32,304 nucleotides of DNA from a virus. The position numbers and the translations under genes are program-made. Below are positions 9,622 to 29,331 of this stretch, piece by piece; position 1 is the first letter of the stretch, and each line of letters begins with the position of its first letter. A model generated the notes under the pieces. It saw nothing but the letters and a program-made list of their open reading frames with translations. It ran no database searches and was not told the origin of the DNA. Location: positions 1 through 32,304 of IMG/VR virus record IMGVR_UViG_3300022074_000207. The stretch is one strand, 5' to 3'.

Positions 9622-10464
9622 ATGTCAGAGGAAGCTATCGAACAGGTAGCCCAGCCAGAAGCAGTGCCAATGGAAACACCGGCAGATATTGCTCAAGGCG
9701 GGTCTGGTGACGATTTCTTATCAATGATACCAGAGGAAATTAGAGAACATCCAAGTCTGTCACCCATCAAAGATGTAAGTAATCTTGCAAGGTCGTATGT
9801 AAACGCGCAACGCTTGATTGGTGCAGACAAACTGCCACTGCCTGCAAACCCCACAGATGCAGACTTAGATAATATCTACAGCAAGTTGGGCAGACCAGAG
9901 AGTGCAGATGGCTATGAGATTGCACCAGATGGGGTAATAGTTACAGAGGACGTTGCAAAGTCCTATTCTGAGATGGCACATACGTTGCGTCTTACGCCAG
10001 ATCAAGCAAGCGGCATACTTGAATATTATAAGGGTATTGCATCAAGCGCCTCTGAAATGAGCATTGAGGCAGAAACACAACAGCGCAACTCTACGGAAAT
10101 GGCCTTGCGGCAAGAGTGGGGAGATGAGTTTGATGCGCGTCTGTCTGATGCAGGCAAGATTGCAAAGCAGTTTGGTGGCGCAGATTTGCTGGATATGCAA
10201 CTTGCTGACGGCACCAAGGTGGGCAATCACCCTGATTTTATCAAAGCCTTTTCTAAGATGGCAGAGTTTCGTTCCAACGTCACAAGTGAAGACACTGTTT
10301 CTGATGCTGCTGAAACAAGTTTGGCATCACGCCATTCTGCACAGCAAGAGATAGATGCCATCATGCGTGGCCCTGATTACACGAATAGAAAAGACCCCGT
10401 AGCTAGAGACAGAGCTATCAATAGAGTAGCTGAGTTGTACGAGGTATTGCATGGATCAGAGTGA
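9622..10464 (+). CDS. Scaffolding (capsid assembly) protein
   Basis: A 280-residue, strongly acidic protein directly upstream of the capsid gene, where scaffolds lie in T7-like genomes. It starts with a disordered acidic stretch. A pattern typical of these assembly proteins follows: LARSYVNAQRLIGADKLPLP, YSKLGRPESADGYEI and YKGIAS. The middle is helical (EMALRQEWGDEFDARLSDAG), and the C-terminus carries a charged helix suited to binding the capsid protein. Scaffold guides prohead assembly and leaves before packaging. AAGGAGTAAAT precedes the ATG. Its end overlaps the next gene by 14 bases. Confidence 0.85.
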   Translation: MSEEAIEQVAQPEAVPMETPADIAQGGSGDDFLSMIPEEIREHPSLSPIKDVSNLARSYVNAQRLIGADKLPLPANPTDADLDNIYSKLGRPESADGYEIAPDGVIVTEDVAKSYSEMAHTLRLTPDQASGILEYYKGIASSASEMSIEAETQQRNSTEMALRQEWGDEFDARLSDAGKIAKQFGGADLLDMQLADGTKVGNHPDFIKAFSKMAEFRSNVTSEDTVSDAAETSLASRHSAQQEIDAIMRGPDYTNRKDPVARDRAINRVAELYEVLHGSE

Positions 10465-10707: not shown

Positions 10708-11586
10708 ATGTCCCAAGGTATCACCACGGCGTTTGTACAACAGTATTCTGCCAACGTGCAGATGCTCTCCCAGCAGATGGGTTCTCGTCTGCGGGATGCG
10801 GTGCGCTTAGAAACTGTTGTAGGCAAGAACGCCTTTATTGACCAAATCGGTAGTGTGACTGCGCAACTGCGTAGCAGTCGTCATGCCGATACACCACAGA
10901 TCGACACACCGCACCAGCGGCGTCGTCTTTCGATTGCATCATACGAATTTGCCGACCTGATTGATGACCAGGATAAGGTGCGTATGTTGATCGACCCGAC
11001 ATCAAGCTACGCCATGGCTGCTGCCGCAGCGATGGGACGTGCTATGGATGATGTCGTCATTACTGCTGCACTTGGAACCGCCAGCACTGGCGAGACAGGT
11101 TCTGGTTCAGCAACTCTTGACGCCACCAACAATATGGTTGGCTCTTCATCGTCAAACGACGGTCTGACTATCGCAAAGCTCACTGAAGCCAAGCGTAAGA
11201 TGGACTTGAATGACGTTGATCCTTCAATCCCGCGCTACATTGCTGTAGGGCCAAAGCAGATTGAAGACCTGCTTGGCACAACACAGGTAACGTCATCGGA
11301 TTTCAATACTATCAAAGCGCTGGTTCAAGGTGACGTGGATACCTTCATGGGTTTCCAGTTCATCATGACAAACCGCTTGAGCATTGACTCCAATGATATT
11401 CGTTCCTGCTTTGCATGGGCTGAAGATGGGATCACTCTTGGTGTGGGCAAAGATGTCCAAGCCAGGATTGATGAGCGCAACGACAAAGGTTATGCGACTC
11501 AGGTTTACTACTGCATGGACATTGGTGCTGTGCGGATGGAAGAAGCCAAGGTTGTCAAAATCTTTTGTGATGAAACCCCAGACTAG
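10708..11586 (+). CDS. Major capsid protein
   Basis: A 292-residue protein after the scaffold with a strong ribosome site (GAGAGGAGGACAGT). Features fit an HK97-fold coat protein of the BPP-1/Bbp17 type: an N-terminal arm (FVQQYSANVQMLSQQMGSRL), a beta-rich E-loop-like region with many Thr, Gln and Arg, and a P-domain helix (AMAAAAAMGRAMDDVVITAA). A Gly/Ser-rich loop and a long A-domain follow, ending in MDIGAVRMEEAKVVKIFCD. It is shorter than T7 gp10. Several hundred copies build the head. A cement-like gene and then a strong hairpin follow, in line with the need for high, separately tuned expression. Confidence 0.88.
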   Translation: MSQGITTAFVQQYSANVQMLSQQMGSRLRDAVRLETVVGKNAFIDQIGSVTAQLRSSRHADTPQIDTPHQRRRLSIASYEFADLIDDQDKVRMLIDPTSSYAMAAAAAMGRAMDDVVITAALGTASTGETGSGSATLDATNNMVGSSSSNDGLTIAKLTEAKRKMDLNDVDPSIPRYIAVGPKQIEDLLGTTQVTSSDFNTIKALVQGDVDTFMGFQFIMTNRLSIDSNDIRSCFAWAEDGITLGVGKDVQARIDERNDKGYATQVYYCMDIGAVRMEEAKVVKIFCDETPD

Positions 11587-26016: not shown

Positions 26017-26462
26017 TGTTAGCAGAACTTGCCGCAGCTAATGCAGCCTTTGCAATTATTAAGCAAACCGTCCAGAACGGCGGTGAAATAGCCCGTGCAG
26101 GAAAAGCAATCGGGGACTTCCTATCTGCGAAGGAAGACCTCATGCGCGAGGGCAATAAAAAACGCGCACGTGGTGTCGGCGGTAACGACCTTGAAGAGTT
26201 CATGGCTCTTGAGCAAATACGTGAAAAAGAGAATGAATTAAAGCAGTTAATGATTTTATCTGGTCGTCCTGGCTTGTGGCGAGACTATCAAAAGTTTTGT
26301 GAAGAAGCGGCAGATGGCAGAGCAAAAGCGCGTCACAGAGCAATCAGGCGTCGTAAGAAAAATCTAGAAACATTTGGCAATGCTGCTGTTGTATTCATCA
26401 TTTTTGGTGGTATTGCAGGCTTGGTGTATTGGGGCTTGTGGATGAAAGGCATCATCAAATGA
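26016..26462 (+). CDS. Hypothetical protein with C-terminal membrane span
   Basis: A 148-residue protein. It starts with AELAAANAAFAIIKQTVQNG and GGEIARAGKAIGDFLSAKED. A charged helical middle follows (LEEFMALEQIREKENELKQL) and a very basic RHRAIRRRKKN. One membrane span is at residues about 123-144 (AVVFIIFGGIAGLVYWGLWM). The C-tail topology and basic flank suggest the bulk stays in the cytoplasm. From memory the family is widespread in marine phages without known function. Its place between exported and holin-like proteins suggests a part in lysis. It overlaps the next gene by four bases. Confidence 0.6.
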   Translation: MLAELAAANAAFAIIKQTVQNGGEIARAGKAIGDFLSAKEDLMREGNKKRARGVGGNDLEEFMALEQIREKENELKQLMILSGRPGLWRDYQKFCEEAADGRAKARHRAIRRRKKNLETFGNAAVVFIIFGGIAGLVYWGLWMKGIIK

Positions 26463-26734
26463 AGCTGCTTTTTCTTCCCCTTCTTCTGGCTTCCTCTCAA
26501 GCTCTAGCACAGGCGGCAAACGATCTGACGGTATGCAGACTTACCAAGTGCATGAAGATCGACAAAGACACAACGGCCTGTGTGTATCGTGGCGCACATA
26601 ACACTCAGGAAACGCTAATGTTTGAGCGTTATGAGTTTCGCCCAAAAGAGTATCTTTGCCAGTGGCAGATAGACCAGCCACCACCACCCAACATCTATGA
26701 CACTTTGAAGGCCATCAAGGAGAGCCAAGAATGA
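26459..26734 (+). CDS. Exported Cys-containing small protein
   Basis: A 91-residue protein with a clear signal peptide: MKLLFLPLLLASSQALAQA, with probable cleavage after AQA near residue 19. The mature part has four Cys (26, 31, 41, 67), likely two disulphides, and a proline-rich stretch (DQPPPPNIYD) near the end. It should act in the periplasm. The lysis context makes a spanin-like or periplasmic accessory role possible, but there is no lipobox and no long coiled coil. The ATG at 26459 overlaps the upstream stop (ATGA); the longer frame from 26429 would hide the signal peptide. Confidence 0.62.
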   Translation: MKLLFLPLLLASSQALAQAANDLTVCRLTKCMKIDKDTTACVYRGAHNTQETLMFERYEFRPKEYLCQWQIDQPPPPNIYDTLKAIKESQE

Positions 26735-26940
26735 CAGTAGAAGATGTGGCAAGAAAGATGCTTGAGCTTAAAATACTGCCACGCTTTTGCATCCTAGTGA
26801 TGACAGGCGTTTACATACGTTGCATCGAATGGGCGCTTTCTCAGCCTGACTTGACAACGCAACAGGCCAGCTTGATTAGTGTCGTTACAGGCGCAATGAC
26901 CGGCTCTCTGGCAGTCTGGCTCAATTCGGAGAAAAGCTAA
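26731..26940 (+). CDS. Holin candidate, two-span
   Basis: A 69-residue protein with two membrane spans: residues about 15-33 (ILPRFCILVMTGVYIRCIEW) and about 46-63 (SLISVVTGAMTGSLAVWL), joined by a short polar loop (SQPDLTTQQ). Size and topology fit a class II holin, which makes holes in the inner membrane to release endolysin. The final residues NSEKS are polar. It overlaps the exported protein gene by four bases and lies upstream of a second holin candidate. Confidence 0.62.
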   Translation: MTVEDVARKMLELKILPRFCILVMTGVYIRCIEWALSQPDLTTQQASLISVVTGAMTGSLAVWLNSEKS

Positions 26941-26969: not shown

Positions 26970-27347
26970 ATGATACAAGCGTTGATACCAGCGATAGCAG
27001 AGTTGGCTGGCGGCTGGCTCAAGGGCAAAGCAGATGAGAAGGCTGCGCAGTCACGGGTCAAAGTTGCCAAGGCAGAGGCTGAAGCAGAGGTGATGAAGGT
27101 CGCGGCCACTCATGAGGCTGGCTGGGAAAAGATCATGGCAGAGGCCAGCAAAGATAGCTGGAAAGACGAAGCCTGGACGATTTTGTTTATAGCTATCATA
27201 GGCATGTGCTTCATACCGCCCTTGCAGCCCTATGTTGAACGTGGGTTTGCCGCGTTAGAAACTACCCCTGATTGGTTTCAATGGGCGATGTATGCTAGTA
27301 TTGCTGCATCATTCGGTCTGAGGGGTTTGAAAGGGCTGAAAAAGTGA
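26970..27347 (+). CDS. Holin candidate, gene-transfer-agent 3TM-like
   Basis: A 125-residue protein. A short hydrophobic start (IQALIPAIAELAGGWLKG) precedes a charged helix (SRVKVAKAEAEAEVMKVAAT). Then comes SWKDEAWTILFIAIIGMCF with a membrane span at about 69-90, a linker with FQWAMY, and a last span ending in SFGLRGLKGLKK. This is the layout of holins of the type found in gene transfer agents and many phages. With the 69-residue protein before it, it could form a holin pair or holin and antiholin. A 29-base gap precedes the ATG, with GGACAAAGTAA as ribosome site. Confidence 0.65.
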   Translation: MIQALIPAIAELAGGWLKGKADEKAAQSRVKVAKAEAEAEVMKVAATHEAGWEKIMAEASKDSWKDEAWTILFIAIIGMCFIPPLQPYVERGFAALETTPDWFQWAMYASIAASFGLRGLKGLKK

Positions 27348-27478
27348 GCTTGTATAGAAACATTCACGCCAAGCGTAAAAGAATCAAAGCTGGCAGTCGT
27401 GAGAAAATGCGTAAGGTTGGGCAAAAAGGTGCGCCAACAAAGAAAAACTTTCAACAAGCTAAAAAGAAAAGACGATGA
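27344..27478 (+). CDS. Tiny basic phage protein (MSLYRNIHAKRKRI type)
   Basis: A 44-residue protein with a GTG start overlapping the upstream stop by four bases and AAGGG before it. It begins SLYRNIHAKRKRIKAGS and continues MRKVGQKGAPTKKNF. More than a third of its residues are Lys or Arg. From memory this is one of the commonest tiny proteins of marine phages; no function is known. It is probably disordered and could bind nucleic acid or acidic protein. Confidence 0.7.
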   Translation: MSLYRNIHAKRKRIKAGSREKMRKVGQKGAPTKKNFQQAKKKRR

Positions 27479-27657
27479 CACGCAAGTTTCCCAAAGTGCC
27501 AAAGACCAAGGGCGGTGTGCCTAAGAAATATGTGCGTGGTGCAAAGAACCCTAAGAAGCGTGAAGAAGAGATCAAGCGCACACGGCGTCTTTACAAACAA
27601 GGCAAACTCACCAAAGCTATGATGGATCGCATCAGCAGGGAGAGGAGTCGCGGATGA
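27475..27657 (+). CDS. Small basic phage protein
   Basis: A 60-residue protein. The motif KTKGGVPKKYVRGAKNPKKR, then EEEIKRTRRLYKQGKLTKAM and MDRISRERS, is a widespread small domain of unknown function in marine viruses, from memory. It is Lys/Arg-rich with a predicted helix in the second half. It overlaps its neighbours by four bases on both sides (ATGA), so it is made as part of a coupled series. Confidence 0.68.
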   Translation: MTRKFPKVPKTKGGVPKKYVRGAKNPKKREEEIKRTRRLYKQGKLTKAMMDRISRERSRG

Positions 27658-27887
27658 GCAAGTCAGCCGTCGTTGATAAATATTCCAAGTCTTCTGGCAT
27701 ATCCAAGTCCACACTCAGCAAGGTGTACTCCAGAGGGTTGGGTGCCTACTATTCACAAGGCTCCAGACCCAAGGTTTCTGCGCATCAGTGGGCGGCTGGC
27801 CGTGTTCGGAGTTTTGCTACGGGCAAGGGTGGTGCGCGTAAGGCAGATGCCGACTTGTTGCGTAAGAAGAAAGGCAAGAAAGCATGA
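27654..27887 (+). CDS. Small basic phage protein with helix-turn-helix-like core
   Basis: A 77-residue protein. VVDKYSKSSGISKSTLSKVY suggests a short helix-turn-helix-like pair. It is followed by SRPKVSAHQWAAGRVRSF and GKGGARKADADLL, a pattern repeated in many marine viral small proteins, and a terminal Lys tract (RKKKGKKA). The function is unknown; DNA binding is plausible from charge and the helix pair. It is coupled by four-base overlaps on both sides. Confidence 0.66.
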   Translation: MSKSAVVDKYSKSSGISKSTLSKVYSRGLGAYYSQGSRPKVSAHQWAAGRVRSFATGKGGARKADADLLRKKKGKKA

Positions 27888-28018
27888 TGAAGAAAGCCAC
27901 AAAGGCAAAGGTGAAGACCGTTGCAAAGAAGTTGCGCGGTGCATCTAAGGCACATGCAGGACAAGCCAAGATGCTTGAGTCTTTGTTGAAAAAGCCAAAG
28001 CGTAAAAGGAGAACATGA
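27884..28018 (+). CDS. Tiny Lys-rich phage protein
   Basis: A 44-residue protein (MMKKATKAKVKTVAKKL, then GASKAHAGQAKMLESLLKKP, ending KRKRRT). It would form one or two strongly cationic amphipathic helices, like a histone tail or antimicrobial peptide. The series AKKL...ASKAHAGQAK recurs in related phages, from memory. It has two adjacent ATG codons (27884 and 27887); the first has the better-placed AGG. No function is known. Confidence 0.65.
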   Translation: MMKKATKAKVKTVAKKLRGASKAHAGQAKMLESLLKKPKRKRRT

Positions 28019-28149
28019 TGCCTGGTAAGAAACTATCTCCCAAGCAGAAGAAACTGGCACGGGTTGCTGCGCCAAGGAACAAGATCACGGGCGCTGACTT
28101 TGCCAAGCTGCGCGGCAACAATGGAAAGAAGAAGAAAGCAAAGGCATGA
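28018..28149 (+). CDS. Tiny Lys-rich phage protein (MPGKKLSPKQKK type)
   Basis: A 43-residue protein: MPGKKLSPKQKKLARVAAP, then RNKITGADFAKLRG and a Lys run. The KITGADF segment is conserved in look-alikes remembered from many phages. GGAG lies six bases before the ATG at 28018; an ATG at 28015 would add one Met and is too close to the ribosome site. The stop overlaps the endolysin start. Function unknown. Confidence 0.65.
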   Translation: MPGKKLSPKQKKLARVAAPRNKITGADFAKLRGNNGKKKKAKA

Positions 28150-28595
28150 ATAAGGATCAGTTACGAGAAGAAATAGCTGAAGACGAGGGCTGTAAATACG
28201 AGGTGTACTTAGATCATCTTGGCCTACCCACGTTCGGAATCGGCGCTCTGGTGAAGGAAGGTGATCCAGAATATGGTCAGCCTGTGGGTACACCTGTAGA
28301 TGAAGAGCGTGTGCGTCAGAGGTTCAACTTGGACATTGCAGTTACCATAGAGGACTGCAAAATTCTTTTTGATGGGTTCGATGACTATCCTGAAGACTGT
28401 CAAAAAATATTGGCAAATATGATGTTTAACATGGGCAGACCGCGCTTATCTAAATTTATTGGAATGAAATCAGCTATTTACGCCAAGGACTGGAATCGGG
28501 CCGCAGACGAGATGGTCGATTCGAGGTGGTATACGCAAGTCACAAATCGCGCAGATAGACTCGTGCAGCGCATGAGAGCATTGGCAGATGGCTAA
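28146..28595 (+). CDS. Endolysin, T4-lysozyme-type muramidase (GH24)
   Basis: A 149-residue lysozyme that cuts the N-acetylmuramic acid to N-acetylglucosamine bond of peptidoglycan. The catalytic triad spacing of T4 lysozyme is exact: Glu14 (in IAEDEG), Asp23 (in VYLDHLG) and Thr29 (in LPTFGIG). A C-terminal lobe follows, with LANMMFNMGRPRLSKF and RWYTQVTNRADRLVQRMRAL. There is no signal peptide, so release should need a holin; two candidates lie about 1 kb upstream. Its place among tiny basic genes and not directly behind a holin is unusual. It overlaps both neighbouring genes. Confidence 0.92.
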   Translation: MNKDQLREEIAEDEGCKYEVYLDHLGLPTFGIGALVKEGDPEYGQPVGTPVDEERVRQRFNLDIAVTIEDCKILFDGFDDYPEDCQKILANMMFNMGRPRLSKFIGMKSAIYAKDWNRAADEMVDSRWYTQVTNRADRLVQRMRALADG

Positions 28596-28896
28596 GACTC
28601 CCGCATGGCAGCGTAAAGAAGGTCAAAACCCTAAAGGCGGCTTGAACGCCAAGGGCAGGGCTTCTGCTAGGCGGCAAGGTATGAATCTCAAACCACCTGT
28701 GAAGAGTGGGGATAACCCACGCAGAGCAAGTTTTCTTGCTAGGATGGGCAACGCAAGGGGGCCAGAGCGTAAAGATGGCAAACCAACGCGCTTACTACTT
28801 TCACTCCGCGCATGGGGTGCAAGCAGCAAGGCTGACGCAAGGAAGAAGGCGGCAGCAATCTCCAAACGTAACAAAGCCAAGAAGGGAAAAGCATAA
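28588..28896 (+). CDS. Basic phage protein of unknown function
   Basis: A 102-residue protein with the pattern AWQRKEGQNPKGGLNAKGRA, then GDNPRRASFLARMGNARGP and TRLLLSLRAWGASSKADAR. From memory this is a well-conserved small domain of unknown function in phages (listed, I believe, as DUF6321). It is rich in Lys, Arg, Gly and Ala, with a Lys-rich end. It overlaps the endolysin by eight bases and the next gene by one. Confidence 0.7.
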   Translation: MAKTPAWQRKEGQNPKGGLNAKGRASARRQGMNLKPPVKSGDNPRRASFLARMGNARGPERKDGKPTRLLLSLRAWGASSKADARKKAAAISKRNKAKKGKA

Positions 28897-29024
28897 TGCC
28901 GATGGGAAAAGGGACATATGGATCGACGCGAGGGCGTCCACCAAAGTCAGCAAAGATGAAAAAACAGGCAGCTACGGCGATTTCTATGAAGAAGGCAAAG
29001 AAGAAGCCAAAGAATAAGATGTAA
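28896..29024 (+). CDS. Tiny basic protein with AT-hook-like RGRPPK
   Basis: A 42-residue protein, last gene of the rightward block. It contains STRGRPPKSAKMKK; RGRP flanked by basic residues is the core of the AT-hook, which lies in the minor groove of A+T-rich DNA. The rest is Lys/Ala-rich. The ATG shares a base with the upstream stop (TAATG). Its stop codon is immediately followed, with no gap, by the stop codon of the leftward gene at 29025. DNA binding is inferred from the motif only. Confidence 0.6.
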   Translation: MPMGKGTYGSTRGRPPKSAKMKKQAATAISMKKAKKKPKNKM

Positions 29025-29153
29025 TTACTTGAAGCTATTGATGTAGCATTCGTAGCAAATATCCTCGCCAGAGGCGAGTGACACCCATGTATCATGGATA
29101 TAGTCACAAGCCTTCTGACATCGGGCGCAGTTAAACGGACTCCTCCTCTTCAT
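29025..29153 (-). CDS. Small zinc-ribbon-like protein
   Basis: A 42-residue protein. The pattern NCARCQKACDY and then, some 20 residues on, DICYECYINSF gives two CxxC pairs and an extra Cys, as in treble-clef or zinc-ribbon peptides. Such phage proteins often bind host proteins or nucleic acids. The ATG at 29153 is 22 bases inside the upstream gene in another frame, with only a weak AGAAGA before it, so translation would depend on coupling. It is the last gene of the right-hand leftward operon. The Cys spacing argues strongly that the frame is real. Confidence 0.6.
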   Translation of the reverse strand: MKRRSPFNCARCQKACDYIHDTWVSLASGEDICYECYINSFK

Positions 29154-29331
29154 GGTCTTCTGTTTGCTGCGCTTCTTCATTTCTCTTCATCTCCATACCA
29201 ACAGCTAAACAGTTGAGTGCAAGCTGTAGCATTTCTGTTGATTGCATTTGTTTCACGTGAATCGTGCCGTCGATGCTGACAGCCACGCCATCATTAGCTC
29301 TAGGTATTATCAGGAACTGTGGCTGATCCAT
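29131..29331 (-). CDS. Small acidic hypothetical protein
   Basis: A 66-residue protein: QFLIIPRANDGVAVSIDGTI looks like two beta strands, QSTEMLQLALNCLAVGMEMK a helix, and the tail is a run of acids (EDHEEEESV). I do not recognise it. It starts at 29331, 32 bases inside the excisionase-like gene, with AGGA six bases before the ATG. Highly acidic tails in small phage proteins can mimic DNA; that is speculation here. Confidence 0.58.
   Translation of the reverse strand: MDQPQFLIIPRANDGVAVSIDGTIHVKQMQSTEMLQLALNCLAVGMEMKRNEEAQQTEDHEEEESV

Follow-up and report, generated by a model that had tools for sequence, protein, structure and literature searches.

The window analysed here is the whole of a linear viral contig from IMG/VR (record IMGVR_UViG_3300022074_000207; 32,304 bases), and our subject is a cassette of seven short genes, named a to g, that encode very basic proteins around a phage endolysin (Table 1). 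The structural genes of this phage are of the T7/P22-like podovirus type and their order resembles that of the pelagiphages HTVC034P and Greip; no near-identical isolate phage was found. Genes in the cassette generally overlap by 4 nucleotides (nt), with 8 nt shared between the endolysin gene (lys) and f, and 1 nt between f and g. From the evidence below, we think it moderately probable that the cassette encodes virion-internal, DNA-associated basic peptides comparable to the internal proteins of phage T4.

Table 1. Genes of the basic-peptide cassette and two related genes elsewhere in the window (aa, amino acids; MCP, major capsid protein).
Feature	Coordinates	Strand	Description
gene a	27344..27478	+	44 aa, GTG start, net charge +17, family phrog_16028 ('NIHAKRKRIxAGSGEKMRK')
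gene b	27475..27657	+	60 aa, net +18
gene c	27654..27887	+	77 aa, net +16, DUF5824 (PF19141)
gene d	27884..28018	+	44 aa, net +16
gene e	28018..28149	+	43 aa from the second ATG (44 aa from 28015), net +14
endolysin (phage lysozyme)	28146..28595	+	149 aa, net -8; PF00959
gene f	28588..28896	+	102 aa, net +24, DUF6321 (PF19846), phrog_4689
gene g	28896..29024	+	42 aa, net +14, RGRPPK string
hol	26970..27347	+	125 aa; upstream anchor of the cassette, possible holin; phrog_2524, E=5e-28
scaffold-like gene	9622..10464	+	280 aa, net -25; between portal and MCP; possible acidic prohead partner

The cassette proteins were set apart by their charge. Each carries a net charge of +14 to +24 with an isoelectric point of 10.8-12.0, one copy of each sums to +119, and the five most basic products of all open reading frames (ORFs) of at least 35 aa in the window are encoded here. 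A charge of at least +0.2 per residue was found in 7/7 cassette ORFs compared to 0/23 other small plausible genes of the window. In six phages, basic small ORFs made up 24/30 of those near f or a and 7/156 of those elsewhere, and 15/21 (p=3e-12) once the a and f families used to pick the places were removed; as the cluster borders in this count were drawn by eye, the exact figure is to be taken loosely.

All seven genes are clearly under purifying selection. Comparison with wild relatives gave ratios of non-synonymous to synonymous change (pN/pS) of 0.21 for a, 0.15 for b, 0.16 for c, 0.31 for d, which is conserved within its lineage, 0.16 for e, 0.19 for f and 0.11 for g (from 4 comparisons only), with 0.10 for hol. 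The genes are short, overlapping and Lys-rich, as would be expected of over-called ORFs or functionless low-complexity by-products, but this explanation is barely credible given pN/pS of 0.11-0.31, Pfam and PHROG families that score over their cutoffs, and relatives in the hundreds. It is already refuted for a, b, c and f; d shows the weakest constraint and g has the fewest comparisons. Coordinates, charge and pN/pS thus uphold the description in the first-pass annotation of seven small Lys/Arg-rich genes with overlaps of 1-8 nt and the endolysin between e and f.

The genes differ widely in how well they could be assigned to families. Gene f is a member of DUF6321 (67.9 bits against a Pfam gathering cutoff of 28.5), with at least 592 relatives in one IMG/VR scan and matches in 495 phage records, and gene c is a member of DUF5824 (50.9 bits, cutoff 25) over profile positions 62-123 of 127 only. 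A first hidden Markov model for c was contaminated by a long cytidylyltransferase and produced false matches; rebuilt from short ORFs only, it gave zero matches in shuffled proteins. Gene a matched phrog_16028 (E=2.6e-18) and, by tblastn, 99 phage records. Genes a and f match separate stretches of a single 141-aa family, phrog_11180, which implies that some phages carry them as a fusion; such fusions were found directly at loci L229, L230, L236 and L245, the last two with LEE/A at the junction. Gene b had a weak PHROG match (phrog_38321, E=4.6e-7), 400 relatives among 430 IMG/VR pattern matches and no match found in isolate phages. Searches with d of Pfam, PHROG and isolate phages were all negative, and a borderline likeness (E=0.05) to a module in a 731-aa protein of the T4-like locus L198 is not claimed here. 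Gene e found nothing in PHROG and has relatives in the pelagiphages HTVC034P, where it lies ~300 bp from f, and HTVC106P; the PHROG match of g was very weak.

To our knowledge, DUF5824 and DUF6321 are families of unknown function, and neither name was mentioned in the open literature that we searched. The earlier remark that the proteins have no function is therefore still true of the family names, with the amendment that c and f do belong to named Pfam families. A scan of genome contigs returned 23 matches, nearly all on metagenome-assembled or single-cell contigs that are possibly viral. A DUF6321-like gene was also seen within 7.5 kb of the start of a contig of 188 kb (L435) from the bacterial isolate Nonlabens xiamenensis, where it may mark a large phage or a prophage. 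Fusions to ribonucleotide reductase, RecA and MCP, implied by annotation labels, were rejected, as the labelled ORFs are family members (a 49-aa a-family ORF in S-B28, an 83-aa f ORF in Greip and a 238-aa DUF5824 protein in CRP-823) and the labels look like mistakes. The record names concerned, which appear wrong, are RecA-like protein (L003, 3876-4127), ribonucleotide reductase A subunit (L002, 3986-4135) and major capsid protein (L001, 3545-4261).

The first-pass annotation had also seen an AT-hook core in g and a helix-turn-helix-like pair in c. Gene g resembles AT-hook proteins (PF02178) in its RGRPPK string and differs from them in scoring 14.8 bits against the Pfam AT_hook profile, under the cutoff of 17.4, and in that GRP is kept in only 13/33 of its relatives; the string is present, and the motif assignment is not supported. 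For c, there was no match to a helix-turn-helix family in Pfam and a weak Cox-like match in PHROG (E=0.46). Its AlphaFold2 model (mean predicted local distance difference test score, pLDDT, 85.4) has three helices, and all matches of this model to the PDB had E>1, none of them convincing, which leaves the helix-turn-helix proposal unsupported. The model of f (pLDDT 90.8) is mostly helical, with no credible match found in the PDB. These confident models suggest that c and f are likely to be folded domains and not plain cationic tails.

Gene neighbourhoods place the families both beside lysis genes and within head modules. In the lineage of the window, surveyed over 400 loci that include many overlapping pieces of the same contigs, the gene order is hol-(a)-b-c-(d)-(e)-lys-f-g, where the genes in brackets are freely lost. 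The idea that the cassette travels as a set is thus borne out for the near-constant pairs b-c and lys-f, whereas the presence of a, d, e and g varies. Its suggested recurrence in marine phages is confirmed, the families being reshuffled as neighbours over hundreds of marine viral loci. At L269, L287, L324 and L296, b is flanked by two divergent DUF5824-type genes (c-b-c), which could reflect a local duplication or a second family member.

Outside this lineage, the T7-like pelagiphage HTVC022P encodes g-a-f between scaffold and MCP, far from its annotated lysozymes, and in P-SCSP1u the stretch from the MCP gene to the tail tube gene contains f and a together with a g-like ORF absent from the annotation. 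In Zobellviridae phage MEP401, f and three other basic ORFs adjoin TerL; in HTVC034P, f and e are among basic ORFs downstream of a peptidase; and in CRP-823 the DUF5824 protein is encoded between portal and MCP. The tblastn matches of g in T7-like phages were individually weak (E 0.2-4), yet 25/28 lay within ~450 bp of an independently found a; as 17 of these are near-identical P-SCSP1 isolates, about seven lineages remain. The g-like ORF of P-SCSP1u (L410, ~11462-11536; 24 aa, MMPYGKGTYGSKVGRPPKKKKKKK) follows the MCP gene, and similar matches occur in other P-SCSP1 isolates. Two more basic families were seen beside DUF6321, KAGNYTKP...GGGYR and SLxxWxxQKWRTKSGK..., which are encoded apart in HTVC034P and MEP401 and as one fusion protein in Hodr (L411 8551-8981, minus strand; L005 5306-5723; L004 6985-7383). 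Four of their ORFs (two from HTVC034P, one from MEP401 and the Hodr fusion) had no Pfam match at E 0.01.

Could the peptides be cationic helpers of lysis that permeabilise membranes together with the holin and endolysin, as the first-pass annotation had allowed? In the window's lineage the cassette does lie between a holin-like gene and the endolysin, and lys and f are nearly always adjacent. Against this, f adjoins TerL in MEP401, the T4-like homologues are encoded between terminase genes, and the hydrophobic face expected of membrane-active peptides was not obvious by inspection. Because g-a-f sits in the head module of HTVC022P and the annotated lysozymes lie elsewhere, this option is not supported, and we judge it very improbable. 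The endolysin itself is a Phage_lysozyme member (28.4 bits, Pfam cutoff 22.3), and hol scored 17 bits against GTA_holin_3TM, under the cutoff of 24.8. Upstream of hol, 26429-26940 encodes a secreted-looking proline-rich protein (hydrophobic N-terminus from ~26460) and a membrane-looking 69-aa protein, which are probably the remainder of the lysis cassette. On the other side, a convergent ORF on the minus strand (29025-29180), encoding a 51-aa Cys-rich, basic, zinc-finger-like protein (CxxC...CYEC), abuts the end of g.

A further link to the phage head came from T4-like relatives. Lys-rich proteins of 387-880 aa in Kyanoviridae end in a DUF6321 module and are encoded between TerS and TerL or directly before TerL. 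The motif [LIVMF]x(x)E occurs within a few residues before DUF6321 in 59/63 distinct T4-like proteins, compared to 14% at random positions in the same proteins. Glu stands exactly 4 residues before the DUF6321 Trp in 52/63, mostly with G, A or S directly after it. A boundary of this kind also precedes two other recurring modules (62/63 and 48/55 cases; background 20%); for a third (SLxDWF) the motif was present in only 17/43 within the span searched. T4 gp21 cleaves after L/I-X-E (PMC9026906), and the corresponding sites are LLTE/A and ILTE/T in the MCPs of two such cyanophages and SFLTE/A in T4 gp23; at many module sites the hydrophobic residue is one position farther out than in the T4 consensus.

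Relatives of a and c also occur as such modules: a follows MLDE/G in a 608-aa protein of the T4-like-type locus L228, and in Melnitz-3 the c module (DUF5824) follows QLDE in a protein that begins with a cytidylyltransferase domain. The matches of a and c in large proteins vanish once these proteins are locally shuffled. The a+f fusions and cytidylyltransferases of T4-like loci start with a leader resembling MKTYQEFIAE/A. In contrast, the free ORFs of the window lack the protease-like boundary site and begin directly at the module with no T4-type capsid-targeting leader, leader-like starts being confined to the T4-like relatives.

Virion proteomics of such relatives has detected some of these proteins. 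ORF137 of S-CREM2, identified from 4 unique peptides (4.1% coverage) in virions purified on CsCl (PMC10665884, Table 3), is a 490-aa protein in which we found DUF6321 (40.8 bits). ORF160 of the same phage, with 7 peptides in the virion proteome (PMC10665884), contains sister modules and matches a major-head-protein profile at its N-terminus. In S-SCSM1, for which 45 virion proteins were reported by mass spectrometry (PMC9602691), ORF29 (517 aa; DUF6321 at 79.5 bits) and ORF93 (69 aa; DUF3008) are both labelled as virion proteins in the record. The predicted cut before DUF6321 falls between VSE and GAAWTKK in ORF29 and ahead of DWQK in S-CREM2 ORF137. Cytidylyltransferase-type proteins, the kind that c is joined to in Melnitz-3, were also detected in the virions of S-SM1, S-CREM2 and S-SCSM1 (PMC3037559, PMC10665884, PMC9602691). 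Two virion proteins, S-CREM2 ORF160 (L173, 24343-25236) and S-SCSM1 ORF97 (L416, 33122-33307), have N-terminal stretches, GATGFTGAAAPEGPVAGYDP and GAGGFTGSSAAEGPTAGYDP, that resemble the residues immediately following the predicted cleavage site of the MCP; these may be a shared head-binding or targeting element. No virion proteomics of cassette-type ORFs was found in the P-SSP7 and P-SCSP1u papers.

Taken together, head-module linkage, modules bounded by protease-like sites and the virion proteomics of relatives support the shared role that the first-pass annotation had raised, and, of its four options, favour a packaged or DNA-associated protein. The evidence is direct for the family of f, fair for a and c, and positional only for b, d, e and g. 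By analogy with T4, the peptides would be made late, from the end of the structural and lysis operon, and would enter the prohead, probably by way of the acidic scaffold. They would remain with the packaged DNA as partial neutralisers and would probably exit the head together with it on infection. Relatives of a, c and f in T4-like marine phages are carried within larger fused proteins, from which f and other modules would be cut free as the head matures; podoviruses lacking a prohead protease encode the same modules as separate ORFs. The scaffolds of six such podoviruses are acidic (net -10 to -25), and by simple arithmetic ~55 copies of each window peptide would balance about one tenth of the phosphates of a 33-kb genome. 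The window's scaffold-like gene matches phrog_3742 (E=8e-44) and also phrog_458, labelled 'protease' (E=1.7e-13), so the absence of a head protease from its phage is provisional.

Several points weigh against this interpretation. A search for virion proteomics of the window's phage and of close relatives found none, and packaging of its own peptides, DNA binding or neutralisation and co-ejection are inferred by analogy. The DUF6321 part of S-CREM2 ORF137 may have gone unseen at the coverage obtained, that the S-SCSM1 labels reflect detection by mass spectrometry is inferred from the record, and, as both papers acknowledge, proteins from outside the virion may be present in CsCl preparations (PMC10665884, PMC9602691). 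Cleavage at the module boundaries is predicted from the motif, and [LIV]xE also occurs inside the DUF6321 module (GLNEKG) and elsewhere in these proteins. No large protein was found to contain b, d, e or g as a module, and for these four genes the case consists of linkage and charge only. The predicted folds of c and f have no known structural relative. Finally, the cassette of this lineage occupies the lysis end of the operon and not the head module; this is not a contradiction, as T4 ipII and ipIII also adjoin the lysozyme gene, e.

Much of the same evidence could be explained if the peptides were prohead-core assembly factors, which bind the acidic scaffold, shape or nucleate the prohead and then leave or are degraded before or during packaging, like T4 gp67 and gp68 and partly IPIII. 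The location between scaffold and MCP in T7-like phages, scaffold charges of -10 to -60 and the protease-like sites around modules would all be expected, the T4 core protein gp68 has a very basic C-terminal tail, and loss of IPIII causes head defects (PMC9026906). We nevertheless regard this as unlikely: mature virions contain DUF6321-bearing proteins (PMC10665884; by record label in S-SCSM1), scaffold fragments mostly exit the head, and the sets differ freely among close relatives, which is unusual for essential assembly factors. That turnover, with the modularity of the genes, resembles that of the internal proteins of T-even phages, which form a diverse defence set according to one account (PMC3012670), and the confident folds predicted for c and f indicate more than mere poly-lysine. 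The peptides might then be host-takeover or anti-defence effectors that bind nucleic acid and target the host nucleoid, RNA or restriction enzymes, whether they are synthesised in the infected cell or injected like T4 IPI. We consider this a little more doubtful again, since placement in the late operon or head module does not fit an early intracellular role unless the peptides are injected, and no likeness to known anti-defence proteins was found, with no dedicated defence-library search run.

If the peptides are indeed virion-internal, the pattern may be a general one. We put forward, tentatively and at somewhat less than even chances, that aquatic double-stranded DNA phages of unrelated lineages share exchangeable, protamine-like basic head peptides of 40-100 aa, delivered as beads that the prohead protease cuts from a polyprotein (T4-like phages) or as free overlapping ORFs (podoviruses), which would condense the genome and be injected with it. 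DUF6321 occurs in ~500 deposited phage genomes, and a link to the head offers a role that can be tested for some small marine-phage proteins that are very common and still unexplained. Because Lys-rich proteins of 40 aa can be missed both by tryptic proteomics and by gene callers, as with the unannotated g-like ORF of P-SCSP1u, the head contents of podoviruses may be under-described.

How do the peptides compare with known systems? DUF3008, represented by S-SCSM1 ORF93, is likewise a small Lys-rich marine phage ORF with a virion label, but it is another family and carries only +7 in 69 aa. The T4 internal proteins, present at ~1000 copies within the DNA with lysines that contact phosphates (PMC3012670), offer a closer parallel. 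IPI, IPII, IPIII and Alt, processed by gp21, are small proteins packed with DNA, with a protease site after Glu and reported lysine-DNA contacts; the genes of IPII and IPIII lie next to that of lysozyme. They are far less basic (+2 to +9) and have an N-terminal targeting leader, whereas the window peptides are more basic, leaderless free ORFs; no sequence relationship between the two was found. Homology was seen with the cyanomyovirus proteins of T4-GC119 (phrog_727, phrog_3477, phrog_10346), which are related to f over their C-terminal DUF6321. These proteins are multi-module, 387-880 aa long, carry protease-like sites and come from phages with gp21, while f is a free ORF of 102 aa; two of their members have been detected in virions.

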